Shown: positions 566 to 47,222 of the stretch, piece after piece
How positions within the stretch are numbered: position 1 is the first letter of the stretch
Layout of the letters: each line of letters begins with the position of its first letter
From: a virus
Reading direction: 5' to 3' (one strand)
Virus record (IMG/VR): IMGVR_UViG_3300033977_000034
Location: 1-50,849 of that record
Length of the DNA stretch: 50,849 nt
Translations under genes and position numbers: made by a program
The notes under the pieces: model-generated
Database searches by the model: none
Seen by the model: the letters and a program-made list of their open reading frames with translations, nothing else
Told to the model about the DNA's origin: nothing

Positions 566-2929
566 TCACTTCATTTCTGGCGACTTGATTTTGATGACTT
601 GTTCCACTTCGTCACCCTTCTTGCTCGCCCAGTTCTTCGCACGTTGACACCATTCCATGCCAATGAGAGGCACCTTGGATCGGTAACTCTCAACTCCCTC
701 TCTCACAACCTCCGTTATTATATTCATTAACTCGTGTTTATGAACGCATAAAATTTCGTCGTGAACATTAGCCACCATGATTCTCAGTGCATAGATGCCT
801 GCCGGTTGCAAATCCCAAATTCGCCGCTGCACGTTTTTAGTAATCTGCGCGCCCGGCGATTGAATCTCATGGTTTGCCGCGGCCCGCATGTTTGCTGCCT
901 GCATCGCAAAGGCAGCCCCGTAAAGGGCGCTGGCTACTGCACCCGCTGCTGTCTGCACTCGATCGCGCCGCATTACTTTGACTTTCGCTTCCTGCCATTT
1001 CTTCGGAGGCTTGCGAGCTAGCTTGAATAGCTCCCGGCAAATGTTATTCTCAAGCGTGAAGTAGCGGCGGAACCCCAGGAAGGTTTCGATGTACTCGGCA
1101 GGCTCAGCCCACACGACCGCCGTACCGATGCCCCCAGGCTGTCTCATCGAGCAGAAGTTATTGAAAGTCTTTTCTCGGGCTTTCTTAATGCCGGGATACT
1201 TTCTACAGAAATTCTCCTCTGCTTGTTGGGCAACATCCGATGGAATGTTAAACTTGTGGACTAATGTATTCCAATCACCGCCATAAATCATGCCGAAGAC
1301 GCCTTGCTTACCTTTGCCATACATATCAAATTCTGTGTCGGCTGATTCAAGCACTTCTTGATAAGTTTTGCCCGGATACATCTCCATTCCGAAGAGCGCA
1401 TGTATCTTCTTGCCGCTGCAAAGTGCTGCTCTCAAATTAGGGTCGTTATACACTGCATCGGCCAGTGTCACCTCGAAGGAGGCGAAATCACCGAGGCTTA
1501 GTACATAACCATCACCCGCTAACGGGAACATCTTTCGCACTTCTTTAGTGTGCTTGATGCCTTGCGGATTGAGCCCATCGGCACCCGCCATGCGCGAAGA
1601 TAGTGTGCCGATAACCACAAATGAAGCGTGGAATTTCCCGGCACGCAATAGCTTGTTGTAAATCTCGACTTCCTTGGCGGCGATCTTCACATCTAGGACT
1701 TGTTCTGCCCGAAGGGCTGCCGGATGTTTGCCAGCTTTCAGGATACCACTGCCGCCACACCGTGAACAAGGGTTCTTGGTACAGCCACAGGGCTCATCAT
1801 CTAAGATCATCCACTCCCTGACGGCTTCCATGTTGGATTTCTTGGTTGATTCCTCCAAGATAAGGGCTTCTATCTCATCCATGGCAGCCGTTACGTAAGC
1901 CCGGACTTCTCCGGCTTTGTTGACGTTTACCGGCGAGGCAGCTACTATAGCTTGCGCCTTTGCACGCAACGTCGTCATGCCGGGTATGTCGATTTTGAAG
2001 CCACGCCAACGGACGACTGCCACCATGCACGCCAGGATTGAATCATCATCCCCAGGCTCAGGATTACCAAAGTGATGGTCAAGAGCGCGCGTATAAACGA
2101 TGTCATCATTGGCGTACTCGCGGGCGTCGGCTCTGGTTGCCCAATGCTCGATATGCTCGGCAATTATGGCAGGCCAGGCTTTGCCAATTAGTTTTTCACC
2201 GTCTCTTACTTCCCAATTCTTCTCGGGCGTCGATACAGCAAGCGCTGTCGGAGCAAAGCCATACTCATACGGGCGGCTCGCGGGTTCCACGTTTTTGTAG
2301 TGAAACTTCGGCTTGTAGCCAAGGGCGTGTTCGGCCAGGAACTTTAAGCCGCCGGCCGGATTGAACCGCAATACGACATCTTTGAAATCAGGATCAATCT
2401 CATCCCAGCGATCCTTGCGGTCGAAGACTTGCCATTTTGGCGCTCCTGGGTCTGCTGATTTGGCAAAATAGATATTATCTAACTGAACACGCTGCTCTAA
2501 TTCTTTGGCGAGAGCATAGGCGAGCGCTGTTGGTACACGCTTGATACGAATATCTTCGCGAGCCATGAGGGATTGATACGGCCCCTTGCGGCTGTGCAGC
2601 ATCAGGTCTAGGGCTGACACGGGCTTGACGCATGGACCTTCTTGCCCCCGTGGCTCAAGCATCGCGATCTCATTGATGTGCTCAGCGGGAATCCAGTCGG
2701 GATTACACAGCCGGAAGATTGTATAAATCTTAACCAGATGAAACCAGTCGAAACTCAGGTTAAAGCCGACAATGGTATTCTTACAGATTAGCTCGATAAG
2801 TGCAAGCGTCTCGTGAATCGGTCGCCGCCAGATTTCATGCAGTTGAATCGGGCCGTCATCGAAGGCATATTGCAGCAACACCGCCATGCCATGCAACCCA
2901 CACGTCTCTGAGTCAATATAGACTTTCAT
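566..2929 (-). CDS. family A DNA polymerase with 3'-5' exonuclease domain
   Basis: Replicative DNA polymerase of the Pol I family, 787 aa. The N-terminal proofreading domain shows Exo I (D6, E8 in DSETCG), an Exo II-like Asp near D61 and Exo III (YANDD near 272-276). The polymerase domain shows motif A (D481 in GDFASFE), motif B (K541, followed by FGMIYGG) and motif C (HDE at 723-725). No 5'-3' exonuclease domain is present, as in many phage polymerases. Residues 381-391 contain CGC..., then CSRC, a possible zinc knuckle inserted between exonuclease and palm. The start ATG overlaps the stop of the upstream small gene (ATGA), suggesting translational coupling. Together with the primase-helicase and Snf2 helicase it should form the replisome. 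Confidence 0.95.
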   Translation of the reverse strand: MKVYIDSETCGLHGMAVLLQYAFDDGPIQLHEIWRRPIHETLALIELICKNTIVGFNLSFDWFHLVKIYTIFRLCNPDWIPAEHINEIAMLEPRGQEGPCVKPVSALDLMLHSRKGPYQSLMAREDIRIKRVPTALAYALAKELEQRVQLDNIYFAKSADPGAPKWQVFDRKDRWDEIDPDFKDVVLRFNPAGGLKFLAEHALGYKPKFHYKNVEPASRPYEYGFAPTALAVSTPEKNWEVRDGEKLIGKAWPAIIAEHIEHWATRADAREYANDDIVYTRALDHHFGNPEPGDDDSILACMVAVVRWRGFKIDIPGMTTLRAKAQAIVAASPVNVNKAGEVRAYVTAAMDEIEALILEESTKKSNMEAVREWMILDDEPCGCTKNPCSRCGGSGILKAGKHPAALRAEQVLDVKIAAKEVEIYNKLLRAGKFHASFVVIGTLSSRMAGADGLNPQGIKHTKEVRKMFPLAGDGYVLSLGDFASFEVTLADAVYNDPNLRAALCSGKKIHALFGMEMYPGKTYQEVLESADTEFDMYGKGKQGVFGMIYGGDWNTLVHKFNIPSDVAQQAEENFCRKYPGIKKAREKTFNNFCSMRQPGGIGTAVVWAEPAEYIETFLGFRRYFTLENNICRELFKLARKPPKKWQEAKVKVMRRDRVQTAAGAVASALYGAAFAMQAANMRAAANHEIQSPGAQITKNVQRRIWDLQPAGIYALRIMVANVHDEILCVHKHELMNIITEVVREGVESYRSKVPLIGMEWCQRAKNWASKKGDEVEQVIKIKSPEMK

Positions 2930-3090
2930 TCTTTAATCAATCCTGCTCTGACCATCGCGGCTCTTGTCGTGTTGATCTTCTCCAGAGCGGCCTTCATTCC
3001 TTGGGCGTCTTGTTCGGCGGCACACTCGATATAAACCTCATACGCGAGTGCGAGGGTTTTCCAGGCTTCAAGTTGTTGGAAGATAGACAT
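2926..3090 (-). CDS. small hypothetical protein, 54 aa, coupled to polymerase
   Basis: Begins MSIFQQLEAWKTLALAYEVY and looks fully alpha-helical. Its TGA overlaps the polymerase ATG. The frame is open upstream to 3177, but ATG 3088-3090 is preferred because the upstream residues are low-complexity and Arg-rich. A strong ribosome site is not visible; a six-base-pair hairpin (3101-3119) lies just before the start. No family recognised. Confidence 0.5.
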   Translation of the reverse strand: MSIFQQLEAWKTLALAYEVYIECAAEQDAQGMKAALEKINTTRAAMVRAGLIKE

Positions 3091-3411
3091 AAATGGGTTG
3101 GGCGGGAATTCCACCCGCCGACTACGGTAACCCGCCTCCCTTGTACCCGTCGTCTTGCACTGGACCGGCCTTCGCAAGGGCTAGGGGTAGTCGTACTGGA
3201 CCTTAGCGGCAGGGTAGTTATTAGCACGCTGCCTCTCGCGCTCTTCTGCGCCTCCAACCCGAATAAGCAAGGGCTCCCGGAACAATACGTCACTATGCCC
3301 TTTGCCGGAGGGCAGTTACCGTTATACCTGGCAAGGAATCCTAGTCACCAGCGACGTAGTTATATAGGTTCAGCGTCACGCCATACGCATACCGGGAGAC
3401 CCTGCACGGGC
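3091..3411. other. 321-base gap without a convincing gene; possible structured RNA
   Basis: No ORF here has a ribosome site or protein-like composition. On either strand several short hairpins can be drawn: GGCGGG 3101-3106 with CCCGCC 3114-3119, and GCCCT 3297-3301 with AGGGC 3309-3313. The octamer GGTCCAGT (minus strand) occurs twice about 30 bases apart. The stretch is more G+C-rich than its neighbours. It lies just upstream of the polymerase operon, so a leader or a noncoding RNA is possible. No known RNA class was recognised. Confidence 0.35.
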
Positions 3412-5408: not shown

Positions 5409-5420
5409 AAAACCTCCAAG

Positions 5421-5493
5421 AGCCGGAGGAGGGATTTGAACCCCCGCACATCGGTTTACAAAACCGTTGATCTACCAACTGAACTACTCCGGC
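5421..5493 (-). tRNA. tRNA-Thr (UGU)
   Basis: Acceptor GCCGGAG pairs with CTCCGGC, T arm GGGGG-TTCAAAT-CCCTC, anticodon loop TTTGTAA giving anticodon UGU (reads ACA). Discriminator is U and CCA is not encoded. The D stem (one U-U) and anticodon stem (one A-A) each carry a mismatch, which is common in phage tRNAs. Confidence 0.9.
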
Positions 5494-5497
5494 AAGT

Positions 5498-5519
5498 GCC
5501 GATGCACTAGAGCATCGGC
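5498..5519 (-). terminator. hairpin between tRNA-Thr and upstream small gene
   Basis: Perfect 8-bp stem GCCGATGC / GCATCGGC with a 6-base loop. No clear U-run follows, so it may be a processing or stabilising hairpin for the tRNA transcript, not a terminator. Confidence 0.4.
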
Positions 5520-5526
5520 TAAATAA

Positions 5527-5646
5527 CTAGGTAAGGTATGCTCCATTAGTACCAACATAAGCTGGTGGTGAATAAGTTGGCGCTCCTGTCGAGACAACCG
5601 CAGAGCAAACATCAATCCAAATTAGGCTGACCTGAAGACTACACAT
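5527..5646 (-). CDS. candidate small protein, 39 aa
   Basis: The minus-strand ATG at 5644-5646 follows a strong ribosome site (GGGAGG, 5 bases before). The product starts MCSLQVSLIWIDVCSAVVS and ends PPAYVGTNGAYLT. The first half is hydrophobic, the second Pro/Tyr/Gly-rich. It fills most of the gap between the 57-aa gene and tRNA-Thr. No family recognised; the case rests on the ribosome site and position. Confidence 0.45.
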   Translation of the reverse strand: MCSLQVSLIWIDVCSAVVSTGAPTYSPPAYVGTNGAYLT

Positions 5647-5664
5647 GCAGTCCTCCCTTTCTAG

Positions 5665-5838
5665 CTAATTGATTCTCCCCGCCTGACTGCCGCGATTACG
5701 ATTCAGCGGCACTTGCTGCCGTTGTGCTTTGAATTCCACGTTCGTCTCGCGCTGAGCGCGTTTGAAAGCATTACGCCCGAACCGCTTCCGCAGATTCTCA
5801 AGCGTCTTTGATAGTTGGTTTGTTGTTTTTTTTGCCAT
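5665..5838 (-). CDS. small basic protein, 57 aa
   Basis: Starts MAKKTTNQLSKTLENLRKRF and is strongly basic (about 14 Lys/Arg). The ribosome site is nearly ideal: GGAGGTGACAC before ATG. It lies between tRNA-Asn and the 39-aa gene. A basic, likely helical and possibly disordered protein; a nucleic-acid-binding role is plausible but not shown. Confidence 0.75.
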   Translation of the reverse strand: MAKKTTNQLSKTLENLRKRFGRNAFKRAQRETNVEFKAQRQQVPLNRNRGSQAGRIN

Positions 5839-5852
5839 GTGTCACCTCCAGA

Positions 5853-5925
5853 CTCCGGGGGCAGGACTCGAACCTGCGACCCAGTGATTAACAGTCACTT
5901 GCGCTACCGACTACGCCACCCCGGA
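5853..5925 (-). tRNA. tRNA-Asn (GUU)
   Basis: Acceptor TCCGGGG pairs with CCCCGGA, anticodon stem AGTGA/TCACT with loop CTGTTAA (anticodon GUU), T arm GCAGG-TTCGAGT-CCTGC, discriminator G as expected for Asn. CCA is not encoded. All stems are well paired. Confidence 0.95.
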
Positions 5926-6225: not shown

Positions 6226-6568
6226 TGGAGGCGGCGGGAATCGAACCCGCGTCCCACGACATTTCCGTATGGATTTACTACGTTCATTTGCCGGTTGTTG
6301 ATCTCATCACAATGAACCGAACCGACCTGAATCTATTGTGACCAGTCGATGTGATTTAATCCAGGCTACTCGACGCTTACCCGGACTATTCGGATTTACA
6401 GCCGGTAGTCGAGTCTCTCCGACTAAGACTCTCAACCGGTGGCGGTACTAGGCCGCCATGGCCATTGGAGTGGCACTTAGGTTTTGGTCGGCTTTTTACG
6501 CGGCCCGCTGACCAACCGCGAAACGCAATCCATACTTCAACCTGTCGGGTCGAATCCAATTCACCCCC
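6226..6568 (-). ncRNA. ssrA: transfer-messenger RNA (tmRNA), one-piece
   Basis: The 5' end GGGGGTGAATTGGATTCGAC and 3' end with T arm GCGGG-TTCGATT-CCCGC are the classic tmRNA ends. The 7-bp acceptor GGGGGUG / CGCCUCC pairs fully (two G-U pairs), with discriminator A. CCA is not encoded. A tag reading frame lies at 6448-6492. Downstream, several pairable segments (for example GACTACCGGC near 6400) fit pseudoknots. Length 343 nt is normal for tmRNA. tmRNA with SmpB rescues stalled ribosomes; no smpB is visible here, so host SmpB would be needed. The 5' eight bases overlap the thyX 3' end. Confidence 0.93.
6448..6492 (-). other. tmRNA proteolysis tag ADQNLSATPMAMAA
   Basis: Resume codon GCC at 6490-6492, stop TAG at 6448-6450. 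It is preceded by the A-rich resume determinant GTAAAAA. The tag encodes ADQNLSATPMAMAA. The C-terminal small/hydrophobic AMAA matches the usual ALAA-type end read by ClpXP-like proteases. The frame is chosen by that ending and by the upstream motif. Confidence 0.85.
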
Positions 6569-42023: not shown

Positions 42024-43199
42024 TTAGTATTGGCTACCAGGAGCCGATACGTCCCAACCCGCCGTCACATTAGACGGTAGCAAGGCTGGCTCATACGAGC
42101 CGTTGCCATAGCCGGTTGGCGGCGTACCACGAGTGGTCACAGCCTTGGTAACGTTGCACTTGCCGTTCACCGAGATCATGGCCTTGTTGTAATCAATTTC
42201 GCGCGTCTCGGCCCGATAGTCGGGGAAGAGCGTAAATTCGGGGTCCGCACCGGAACACGGCGGTGTATACGTAACAAACATGCCGACGCAATACGGTTGG
42301 CAAGGATCATAGGGATCGGATGTGACCCACTCCGAAGCCCCGCCGATGCCCTTCAAGGCGTCCATCGGGCAAATCAACTCACCAGTGCCGGTAGTGATAT
42401 GCTCGTACACGCACTCGAACTTCATGTCAACCGGCACTTCGTTGCCCTCTCGCACGGCATCCAGGTTGCCACGCTCCAGGTCATACTTGTACTCCATCTT
42501 CTCGGTGTAAGTGCAGTTGCCCTCGCCGATCTTGATTTCGAGTTGCTGGTTAAAGAAGCTAAGTAGGTCGCCGATTGCATACGAGGTGATCGGAGCGGCC
42601 AAGGCCGGTGAGAACGTAATTGCAGTTGTCGAGCCAGGGGTCAGGCCGGCGGTCGCTGTCGTTACCGTAACTGCTGGTGTTGAGCCAGTAAGAAGGGATG
42701 TATCGACACCAAGCAAGGGCTGCGGCTGAAGTCCAAGAGCCCCTTGGAATGTAATCGCATACGCACCACTGGAACCTGTGACCGCAAAACATCCTGACAC
42801 ACCGGACAGGGCATTAAGCGCCGATGCTACCTGTGCTGCGGTGGCCTGGTAGCCTAGTTGGATCGTCTCCATGCCGCTATAAAGCAGACCAAAGGTGCCG
42901 CCCGAAGCAGACACAGAAACGTCTTGCACCGCATTCGCCCCGTTAAGAGTGTTAGTCCTGCCGGTGACAATGTGCAGCGGTGTGCCAGTCTCAGAGGCTA
43001 GTGTAAAGCGAGCACCGATAGGAACCCTGCCCGTGTTAGCGGCGCGAGGGATATAGGTGTTCTGAAGAGAAAGAGTTGTCACTCCCGAAGACCCTGAAGC
43101 ACTTGCTTGAGAGGTAGGAGGAGTGATACCATCGACGCCGGGCAGACCAAGGCCATCGTTCAGCGTAATGGTGCAGTATCGTAGTTCAATACGGGCCAT
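42024..43199 (-). CDS. major tail protein with inserted decoration domain
   Basis: 391 aa, starts MARIELRYCTITLNDGLGLP, AAAGGAG before the ATG. The first 25 and last 190 residues (QLEIKIGEGNCTYTEKMEYK, RGNLDAVREGNEVPVDMKFE) fit a tail tube subunit. Residues about 30-210 are a Ser/Thr/Gly-rich insertion; its part GGTFGLLYSGMETIQLGYQA, ending in ITFQGALG, recalls a beta repeat seen in other phage virion proteins. A strong terminator follows, as expected for an abundant protein. Confidence 0.85.
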   Translation of the reverse strand: MARIELRYCTITLNDGLGLPGVDGITPPTSQASASGSSGVTTLSLQNTYIPRAANTGRVPIGARFTLASETGTPLHIVTGRTNTLNGANAVQDVSVSASGGTFGLLYSGMETIQLGYQATAAQVASALNALSGVSGCFAVTGSSGAYAITFQGALGLQPQPLLGVDTSLLTGSTPAVTVTTATAGLTPGSTTAITFSPALAAPITSYAIGDLLSFFNQQLEIKIGEGNCTYTEKMEYKYDLERGNLDAVREGNEVPVDMKFECVYEHITTGTGELICPMDALKGIGGASEWVTSDPYDPCQPYCVGMFVTYTPPCSGADPEFTLFPDYRAETREIDYNKAMISVNGKCNVTKAVTTRGTPPTGYGNGSYEPALLPSNVTAGWDVSAPGSQY

Positions 43200-44645: not shown

Positions 44646-44685
44646 CAAGTTGATAGTATATATATATATATATACTATCAACTTG
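44646..44685 (-). repeat. 40-base perfect (TA)n palindrome after the capsid stop
   Basis: CAAGTTGATAGTATATATAT and its exact complement, starting two bases after the major capsid TAA. The minus-strand RNA forms a long hairpin; flanking TTTT lies on plus, so it might act in either direction. Possible terminator, RNase barrier or cruciform. Confidence 0.6.
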
Positions 44686-44687
44686 TT

Positions 44688-46145
44688 TTAGCCCTGGAGC
44701 ACGACGCAGAGGCGGTCGTCGAGAACCGCGACACCAGCGAGGATGTCGAGATTGACCACGGTGCCGCCAGCGGCGATCTGGTACTGCATGGAAACACGCA
44801 TTGCCACGTCGTTGTAAACGCCGACGTGGGACAGCACGCCCATCGCATTATTCGGAATCGCCAGAGGCCGTGTGACCAACGCGATTGCATTCCGATGGAA
44901 GGCCAGGTTCAGGGCACCGGCCGGACCAGGGAAGCACAAAGCATTGGAAGCCACTGCCGCGTCAAGCGGACGATCCAGAATGACGGCCTGGATAATTTCC
45001 GTGTTGGAGGGCGGGTTTGCGTAGCCGACCTGATACGATTCAATGACCGTATAGGTCTGACGAGCCGAACCCGTGCCAAACGCGAGCAACTGACCGATCT
45101 GAGGAGCCGGAGAGTTTGCGTTGCACTGCACGTAAACTTCCTGCGCCCATTGATACGGATACGAAGTGAGGCCGGCAGCAGAAGTACCAGCCGGAGCACA
45201 AAGCTGCTCTGCACGGTACACAGTCAACTGAGCACCGGCAGCGGTGGAATACTTGTTGACCTCGTTGAGGGTGATGCTTGCGGTGTAATCACCAGCACCG
45301 TAAGGCCCGGACGCCCCAGTTGCGCCGGTTGCACCTGTCGCGTTCTCGGACGCCGTAACCCATGTCGGCTGATCATTGCCGCTAACCACGGCGAACTCAC
45401 CCGGATTGACTCCCCAACCAGCGAGAGAGACGGCCTGAGCGCCGTTCGCGCCGGCAGCCAGAGCGTTGGTGACGGTGCCCGTCACGAAGTCGCCGTTGCC
45501 CGGCAACACGCTGTTCACGTTCTGGTCCATATAGGTGTCAAACCCGAGGATACGGCCGAGAGTAGCGCCTTCCAACGCCGAACCGAAGTCACCGCGCTTC
45601 TGGGCAGCGATGAACAGTTCGTTCTTCAACAGAGCGGTCTCGCTGATAGGAGCAAGAACCAAGTTCCTGCCATCCAGTGGGGCTTTGTTGACGTTCAGCG
45701 TCTCACGCGCGTCCAGCACGAAATCCTTGCTATTCATGGCCGACAGCTTGCCCAAAGCACCAACACGCCCAGTCGGGCCGCCGTTGGCGGTCGAAGGGGT
45801 GAGGAACTTGTGAACCTGACCAAGCACCGCGCGGTCCACCGAACGGGCAATAGTCATCATGCCGGGGCGCAGATAGATGTCCACCAAGTCTTGAAACGAC
45901 TTGCTGGCCTCTCCATCCCGAATGGTGAAGCTGGTGTAAAACCACTGATTGAGGGGAACCTGCACATTGGTCGCGGTAGCGTCCTGGTTCTCCAGCGTGG
46001 AACCATCCACCTTCCTGCGAATCTGGAAGGTACCGGGCCGGCGTGTGTTGACCACATCGCCGAACTGCCGGATTTCATTCTCAAAGTCACGATGGACTAG
46101 GTTGGCGATGACCATGTTCTCTTGAAGAATGGCCAAGCCTTCGTT
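44688..46145 (-). CDS. major capsid protein, exon 2
   Basis: Codes 485 residues, beginning NEGLAILQENMVIANLVHRD after splicing. The pattern VHRDFENEI..FGDVVNTRRPG, then NQWFYTSFTIRDGEASKSFQDLVDIYLRPGM, is that of P22-type or related coat proteins of the HK97 fold. Residues near 290 carry a short collagen-like insert GATGATGAS. The total protein is 512 aa. An independent start at GTG 46173-46175 has no ribosome site and would miss the conserved FIPELWA. So this is the second exon of a gene whose 5' part is at 47068-47148. Scaffold is upstream. Confidence 0.9.
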   Translation of the reverse strand, partial: NEGLAILQENMVIANLVHRDFENEIRQFGDVVNTRRPGTFQIRRKVDGSTLENQDATATNVQVPLNQWFYTSFTIRDGEASKSFQDLVDIYLRPGMMTIARSVDRAVLGQVHKFLTPSTANGGPTGRVGALGKLSAMNSKDFVLDARETLNVNKAPLDGRNLVLAPISETALLKNELFIAAQKRGDFGSALEGATLGRILGFDTYMDQNVNSVLPGNGDFVTGTVTNALAAGANGAQAVSLAGWGVNPGEFAVVSGNDQPTWVTASENATGATGATGASGPYGAGDYTASITLNEVNKYSTAAGAQLTVYRAEQLCAPAGTSAAGLTSYPYQWAQEVYVQCNANSPAPQIGQLLAFGTGSARQTYTVIESYQVGYANPPSNTEIIQAVILDRPLDAAVASNALCFPGPAGALNLAFHRNAIALVTRPLAIPNNAMGVLSHVGVYNDVAMRVSMQYQIAAGGTVVNLDILAGVAVLDDRLCVVLQG

Positions 46146-47067
46146 CATTCTTGTTACCGTTACTAAACGGGTCACGTCATTTCTGCGTAACTCTGCATGT
46201 TTCCATGCAGATCGGACTATATCATCATCAAGTAATCAAGACATATTTGAATGCGCCTCTCCTGTGCAGGCGTTTCGTTGCGAAGCGTACTATTACAGCC
46301 GTTGCACACGATGCCGCGAACAACATTACCAACATGGTGAATCTGTTTGTCATCATTAGGAAACGGAAGACCGCAGCAATCACATAATTCGGCACTATAG
46401 AGCCACCGAACCATTGACTCTGGCAGTTTGTACTTACGCATTACGTAATAGACAATTTGGCATTTCTTGCACCACCGTTTGCGAAAGCCGCAGCTTATAC
46501 TAAATGCGTCTTTTGGCAATAATCGTCTACAACCAACACACTCAAATAATCCAGATACTTGCGTCTGGCATGTAGTCTCTGAGGGGTCACGAAGACTTCC
46601 CTGCGGATTGACCCTATTGAAGAGATTTTTACGTAAAGTTGGCTCAGTATCAGGCATTTTGATAAACTCAAGACAGCTTATGAGACGATGGGCATCAGCG
46701 CCCGTCTCCTGTCCGATCAGTTTATTGCAGTAATAGCATACCACCAGTGTTTTACTGCCGATATGATGAATATGCTGCAACAGCCTTCTCTCAAACCTAT
46801 CATGACAAATTGAACAGTGTGTAGCAGCATAAAGTGCCTCGCACTTTTCAATCGTGATGCCGTATCTCCGTGCTTGATCCTTAATCTTCTTGCAGTGCTT
46901 ACACAGACTGTATTGAAACCTTCCATTCTTGGAGAAGCCTCTATCAGTCCGCCCACAGCAACTACACGCACGGATGGCAAACATTACGTACTCTTCACCT
47001 AACAGGTGTTTCCCGCATATAGCCAGATTTACCGTATCAGTCACCCAATACGGGGCCTACGAATTCA
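46146..47067 (-). mobile_element. group I intron in the major capsid gene (922 nt)
   Basis: Elements drawn by eye. P1: exon GGGCU with IGS GGCCC (47053-47057), U-G pair at the splice site. P10: UUCGU (47059-47063) with exon ACGAA (46140-46144). P3: UCUGGC (47022-47027) with GCCAGA (46564-46569). P4: UGCGG (47013-47017) with CCGCA (46602-46606). P6: hairpin 46583-46601. P7: GACUA (46573-46577) with UAGUC (46215-46219, in the classic GATATAGTCC). P8: CAAGUA (46556-46561) with UACUUG (46229-46234). P9: CUGCAUG-GAAA-CAUGCAG (46193-46210). The intron ends in G. Splicing gives FIPELWA joined to NEGLAIL in frame. Confidence 0.9.
46217..46984 (-). CDS. intron-encoded endonuclease VII-like protein, two tandem modules
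   Basis: 255 aa from ATG 46982-46984 (the frame is open to 47044). Two copies of a module: zinc-ribbon CSCCGRTDRGFS...LCKHCKK, then CSICHDRF...LQHIHHIG...VVCYYCNKLIG; and CVGCRRLL...WCKKCQ, then CDCCGLPF...QIHHVGNVVRGIVCNGCNSTL. The second fits endonuclease VII (HHVG..RG..C..CN); the first has a less complete RG turn (SKTLVVCYYCN). The link between them (NPQGSLRDPSETTCQ) is coded by the ribozyme core. AGGTGAAGAG precedes the start. The stop TAG lies in P7. Likely the homing enzyme of the intron. Confidence 0.85.
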   Translation of the reverse strand: MFAIRACSCCGRTDRGFSKNGRFQYSLCKHCKKIKDQARRYGITIEKCEALYAATHCSICHDRFERRLLQHIHHIGSKTLVVCYYCNKLIGQETGADAHRLISCLEFIKMPDTEPTLRKNLFNRVNPQGSLRDPSETTCQTQVSGLFECVGCRRLLPKDAFSISCGFRKRWCKKCQIVYYVMRKYKLPESMVRWLYSAELCDCCGLPFPNDDKQIHHVGNVVRGIVCNGCNSTLRNETPAQERRIQICLDYLMMI

Positions 47068-47148
47068 AGCCCAAAGTTCCGGAATGAAAGCACTATTGTC
47101 GTTGTCAAAGCAAGCGACACGAGCGCGAATCACGTAATTGGGATTCAT
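47068..47148 (-). CDS. major capsid protein, exon 1
   Basis: 27 codons: MNPNYVIRARVACFDNDNSA then FIPELWA. CAGGAGATTAAC is an excellent ribosome site before ATG 47146-47148. Without splicing the next codon is TGA, so only a 27-residue peptide results. The FIPELW motif is the normal start of related capsid proteins, and NEGLAIL in exon 2 continues it. Confidence 0.88.
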
Positions 47149-47222
47149 GTTAATCTCCTGTTTCAAAGTGAAAAAGACCTACATTGTAGTCTTTAGAATA
47201 CTAACGGAACCCCTGAGACAAA

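Follow-up and report, generated by a model that had tools for sequence, protein, structure and literature searches.

Splicing of a group I intron from a phage capsid gene has been described in the mycobacteriophage LittleE (Cluster J), whose major capsid gene carries an 819 bp group I-like intron with a homing endonuclease ORF; RT-PCR and N-terminal sequencing were used to show the splicing (PMC3706429). For the lactococcal phage Tuc2009, known here through its citation in PMC3706429, a capsid subunit gene with a group I intron is likewise on record, and the window is like it in this respect. T4 EndoVII and F-CphI have a D-H-D-H, R, N motif, and some F-CphI/DHHRN homing endonucleases are encoded by group I introns that sit in DNA polymerase genes of podoviruses (PMC6083498). 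LittleE and Tuc2009 are thus precedents for intron-bearing capsid genes, and homing enzymes of the EndoVII type are known as well.

The window, i.e., the whole 50,849-base stretch of virus DNA analyzed here, has its major capsid gene on the minus strand, where exon 1, a 922-nt intron and exon 2 follow one another and give a joined product of 512 aa. With a probability of about 95%, judged from the sequence, codons 27 and 28 of this tailed-phage major capsid gene are separated by a mobile group I intron that encodes a double nuclease. A ribosome-binding site, AGGAG (47155..47159, minus strand), lies upstream of exon 1 (47068..47148, minus strand). The 27 codons of exon 1, MNPNYVIRARVACFDNDNSAFIPELWA, begin with the ATG at 47148, end with the residues FIPELWA and are also present in uninterrupted homologues. 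Directly after FIPELWA, the first intron codon is an in-frame TGA. Exon 2 (44688..46145, minus strand) opens with AACGAAGGC at 46145 and closes at 44688. Exon 2 alone matched PF11651 (P22_CoatProtein) with 86.6 bits and the PHROG 283 major head protein with an E value of 1.1e-48, while the spliced protein reached 88.9 bits against a PF11651 cut-off of 24, indicating a P22-type (HK97-fold) major capsid protein. Immediately after the capsid stop, a long AT-rich inverted repeat (CAAGTTGATAGTATATA...TATACTATCAACTTG) was found at window 44646-44685. A promoter and terminator scan gave chance-level matches only.

The intron (46146..47067, minus strand) starts with UGAAUUCG and terminates with AAGAAUG, as delimited by the Rfam group I intron model RF00028, P1/P10 and helix covariation. 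RF00028 matched 47076-46193 on the minus strand over the full model (1-253) with 75.9 bits (cut-off 50) and an E value of 1.4e-17, and no second group I match was found in the 50,849-base virus record. The initial annotation had proposed a capsid gene split by a group I intron with exactly these boundaries, preceded by the same ribosome site and 27-codon piece, and this reading was borne out both by the Infernal score, which is well above the curated cut-off, and by uninterrupted homologues that match the junction. The P3, P7 and GAAA-capped P9 helices that it had noted are present in the RF00028 alignment: the P3 5′ strand UCUGGC (47022..47027, minus strand) pairs with GCCAGA, located 3′ of the P7 5′ strand, the P7 3′ strand GAUAUAGUC (46215..46223, minus strand) holds the stop codon of the intron ORF, and P9 (46193..46210, minus strand) is the hairpin CUGCAUG-GAAA-CAUGCAG. 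Covariation was also seen for P3 and P9. P1 is formed by GGGCU:GGCCC with a U.G pair at the splice site, and P10 by ACGAA:UUCGU. The splice sites predicted from P1 and P10 gain support from nine related introns in which the same features recur. In all ten introns, the last base of exon 1 is U and the last base of the intron is G, P1 joins the exon end to an intron guide that also pairs with the 3′ exon as P10, and an in-frame stop occurs inside the first three codons; P1 of L210 has only 3 bp. All pairs in P1, P2, P3, P9, P9.1 and P9.2 are canonical across the ten introns, with alternative pair types in each helix, and exchanging 3′ strands between introns reduced pairing in nearly all trials. 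The helix strands were chosen by hand and eye to pair, so this covariation count is supportive rather than independent.

The spliced capsid protein was used to search viral contigs (IMG/VR), and 80 loci were collected. The predicted continuity of FIPELWA-NEGLAIL held in 70 of them, which read straight through the junction, many with identical FIPELWANEGLAILQENMVIAN; in six, the gene is interrupted 7 nt upstream of it by a related group I intron, and four stop short of the junction. Five further intron-bearing capsid loci (L143, L210, L211, L218 and L219) came from intron-motif and nuclease-alignment searches. Against bacterial genomes, the capsid alignment recovered one 53% relative (a MAG labelled Anaerolinea) and weak ones, and no host is claimed. 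A capsid protein starting at GTG 46175 was also considered, with the 27-codon piece as a relic and the sequence between as a degenerate nuclease insertion rather than an active intron. The frame from this GTG is open for 495 aa, and its product loses very little of the family match (87.3 versus 88.9 bits). However, its first 10 residues would derive from the 3′ end of the intron, in all 70 uninterrupted relatives the protein runs on across the junction, the match to exon 1 beginning at residue 1 in most, and the full RF00028 model matches with helices intact and co-varying pairs. This start and the decayed insertion were rejected, and the reading behind them is highly improbable. Gene callers would be likely to put the capsid start at this wrong GTG, and the intron reading corrects such an annotation.

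The relatives define two insertion sites 7 nt apart. Site A lies between GAGCU or GGAACU on one side and UUGGGC (or a near variant) on the other, and is occupied in L035, L036, L057-L060, L143, L210, L211 and L218. Site B, used in the window, in L219 and in L218, follows UUGGGCU, 7 nt downstream of site A. RF00028 scores were 55.9 bits for L035, 50.1 for L036, 51.8 for L057 (from which L058-L060 do not differ in the 1,120 bases compared), 50.5 for L218 intron A and 48.4 for L219; L218 intron B scored 40.1 bits, below the 50-bit cut-off, its 5′ part being poorly placed by the model. L218 holds introns at both sites (A, 1796-2465; B, 2473-3399) separated by the mini-exon TTGGGCT, and removing both in silico restored a continuous capsid reading frame. 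This doubly interrupted capsid gene spans L218:1725-3430, each site being singly filled in other phages. L218 is unlikely to be an assembly artifact in which two alleles were joined, as such alleles would share just about 7 nt at the join. The recurrent introns at two sites 7 nt apart probably mark a homing hotspot in an essential capsid gene. Each virion requires hundreds of copies of the capsid protein, and an intron in its gene must therefore splice very well.

Other introns and elements were seen in the same data. Capsid relatives have group I introns of about 220 nt that lack a nuclease ORF (L063:7525-7749, also L202, L203, L205 and L206), located at the gene for the major tail protein or close to it; the one in L063 follows the opening codons MARIELR. 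The homologue of this gene in the window (42024-43199) is uninterrupted. At L144:746-1387, a major head protein gene of a different kind (PHROG 27239/267) is interrupted by a group I intron that holds an EndoVII-like ORF, and capsid genes thus seem to be a repeated target. Several group I intron matches lie in or around a terminase large subunit gene at L169:1-1329, together with an EndoVII-like ORF. Window positions 6226-6568 and 5420-5925 hold a tmRNA (tag ATPMAMAA), a tRNA-Asn and a tRNA-Thr.

The intron ORF (46217..46984, minus strand) encodes 255 aa from its ATG, or 275 aa if GTG 47044 is used as the start, and its stop UAG lies in P7. Two EndoVII/HNH-like domains are encoded in one frame that runs across the ribozyme core. 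Domain 1 occupies the P5 loop (46658..46972, minus strand) and was recognized by a self-built profile that includes the domain itself, by alignment and by a structure model; domain 2 occupies the P8 loop (46226..46546, minus strand) and was recognized by a profile of the same kind, by alignment and by secondary structure. The initial annotation was silent on this double nuclease and on the neighboring insertion site of the relatives. The two domains are 31.6% identical, and each shows CxxC...CxxC followed by C..C...IHH...C..CN with the motifs intact and a predicted strand-strand-helix at IHH/CN, the order of elements in a beta-beta-alpha metal fold. PHROG 2633 (endonuclease VII) matched the ORF with an E value of 2.1e-12, and PF02945 (Endonuclease_7) with 20.8 bits, below its gathering cut-off of 23.6. 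The protein falls outside the DHHRN definition (D40, H41, H43, R54, N62): IHH replaces DHDH, Arg is present in one domain only (absent from domain 1), and Asn is retained in both. An AlphaFold model of the full-length protein from two sequences was poor (pLDDT 55.9), and a one-domain model was better (80.6). With the latter, a PDB fold search found nothing at E<=0.001; among nucleases, the HNH nicking endonuclease 4h9d came closest (E 0.25, prob 0.84), which is not significant. The intron protein resembles EndoVII/HNH nucleases, with a family assignment that is only approximate because of the sub-cut-off PF02945 score and the replacement of DHDH by IHH.

No relatives of the nuclease ORF were found by tblastn in annotated phages, nor with the single sequence in viral contigs; they were reached only by alignment-based searches. 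In the single-domain relatives, the nuclease occupies the P8 loop only and the ORF enters from P4, crossing the core in the frame that the window also uses, with core-derived residues that align. The extra P5-loop domain was found in the window and in L218 intron B, whose double ORFs are 43% identical and have the same site and the same architecture. It might be supposed that the two domains are separate proteins with their own starts that share one frame by chance, since the P5 and P8 loops are independent insertion places and single-domain relatives exist. However, the single-domain family keeps the same frame through the core linker and the diverged intron B of L218 joins both domains likewise, making two separate proteins unlikely.

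When the window was compared with L218 intron B, the differences counted at codon positions 1/2/3 were 50/50/77 for domain 1 and 57/48/77 for domain 2. The core linker gave 8/9/8, and a silent change was seen at just one of its 13 identical residues. From the third-position excess in the domains and the flat pattern in the linker, selection looks to act on protein in the domains and on RNA in the linker. These counts also bear on whether the intron splices while its ORF is a decaying passenger and mobility has been lost. The catalytic Asp of EndoVII is absent, as is Arg in domain 1, and L218 is the only close relative of the double ORF among viral contigs, as decay would allow. On the other hand, the CxxC pairs and IHH/CN motifs are intact in both domains, there is no internal stop, changes against L218 are in excess at the third position, IHH is also the motif of the relatives, and L035 and L036, which are close to each other, give a dN of 0.063 versus a dS of 0.40. 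A decaying ORF is improbable. The site-A nuclease of L035 is 42% identical to domain 1 and 35% to domain 2; a nuclease-domain tree had long branches and was not relied on.

In the preferred reading, a mobile intron with a double nuclease, the transcript would fold into a ribozyme (P1-P9 plus P10), the 922 nt would be excised, and ...UUGGGCU would be ligated to AACGAAGG... to give the junction CTTTGGGCT/AACGAAGGC and the 512-aa P22-type capsid protein. On unspliced RNA, ribosomes would halt at the UGA that forms the first intron codon. One protein, with its two EndoVII/HNH-like domains in the P5 and P8 loops, would be translated through the core; it would most likely cut the intron-less capsid gene of co-infecting relatives, and repair would copy the intron in (homing). 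The ribozyme match, the splice sites, the homologues without an interruption and the conservation of the two nuclease domains are shown by the analysis. We infer splicing in the cell, DNA cutting and homing from the sequence, the homing role because of the nuclease family resemblance and the patchy presence of the introns. It is also conceivable, though doubtful, that the heads of this one protein differ in target or role and that neighboring capsid introns compete between co-infecting phages, both having settled in L218. If so, one head could serve, e.g., the site-B allele and the other relatives with the intron 7 nt upstream, and the settling of both introns in L218 would have left the 7-nt mini-exon. 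The nuclease fusion through the core, kept in two diverged introns, offers a clear case of a single stretch that does double duty, as part of a ribozyme and as a protein linker.

The literature searched, which took in few subscription papers and so leaves absence unproven, yielded no phage ribozyme with a doubled EndoVII-type ORF running through its core. LittleE and the window are alike in that the capsid gene has an intron with a nuclease ORF, exon 1 closes with U and the intron with G, and intron-less relatives exist (PMC3706429). LittleE is, however, an unrelated phage with a LAGLIDADG-like ORF on the opposite strand, whereas the window has a doubled, core-threaded ORF of EndoVII/HNH-like type that shares the strand of the capsid gene (PMC3706429). 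With the F-CphI/DHHRN enzymes the window shares EndoVII-like character, CxxC pairs of the putative zinc type and the CN motif; unlike them, it has IHH for DHDH, two domains per ORF and a capsid host gene (PMC6083498). Composite fungal mitochondrial introns also lie one or a few nt apart, with mini-exons and in-frame fused nuclease ORFs, as here (PMC12308204 and work cited there). They are mitochondrial and use other nuclease families, whereas here it is a phage intron, with one intact ribozyme core, that the fusion crosses. The doubled nuclease, together with a second site only 7 bases away in relatives, is what is unusual about this capsid intron.
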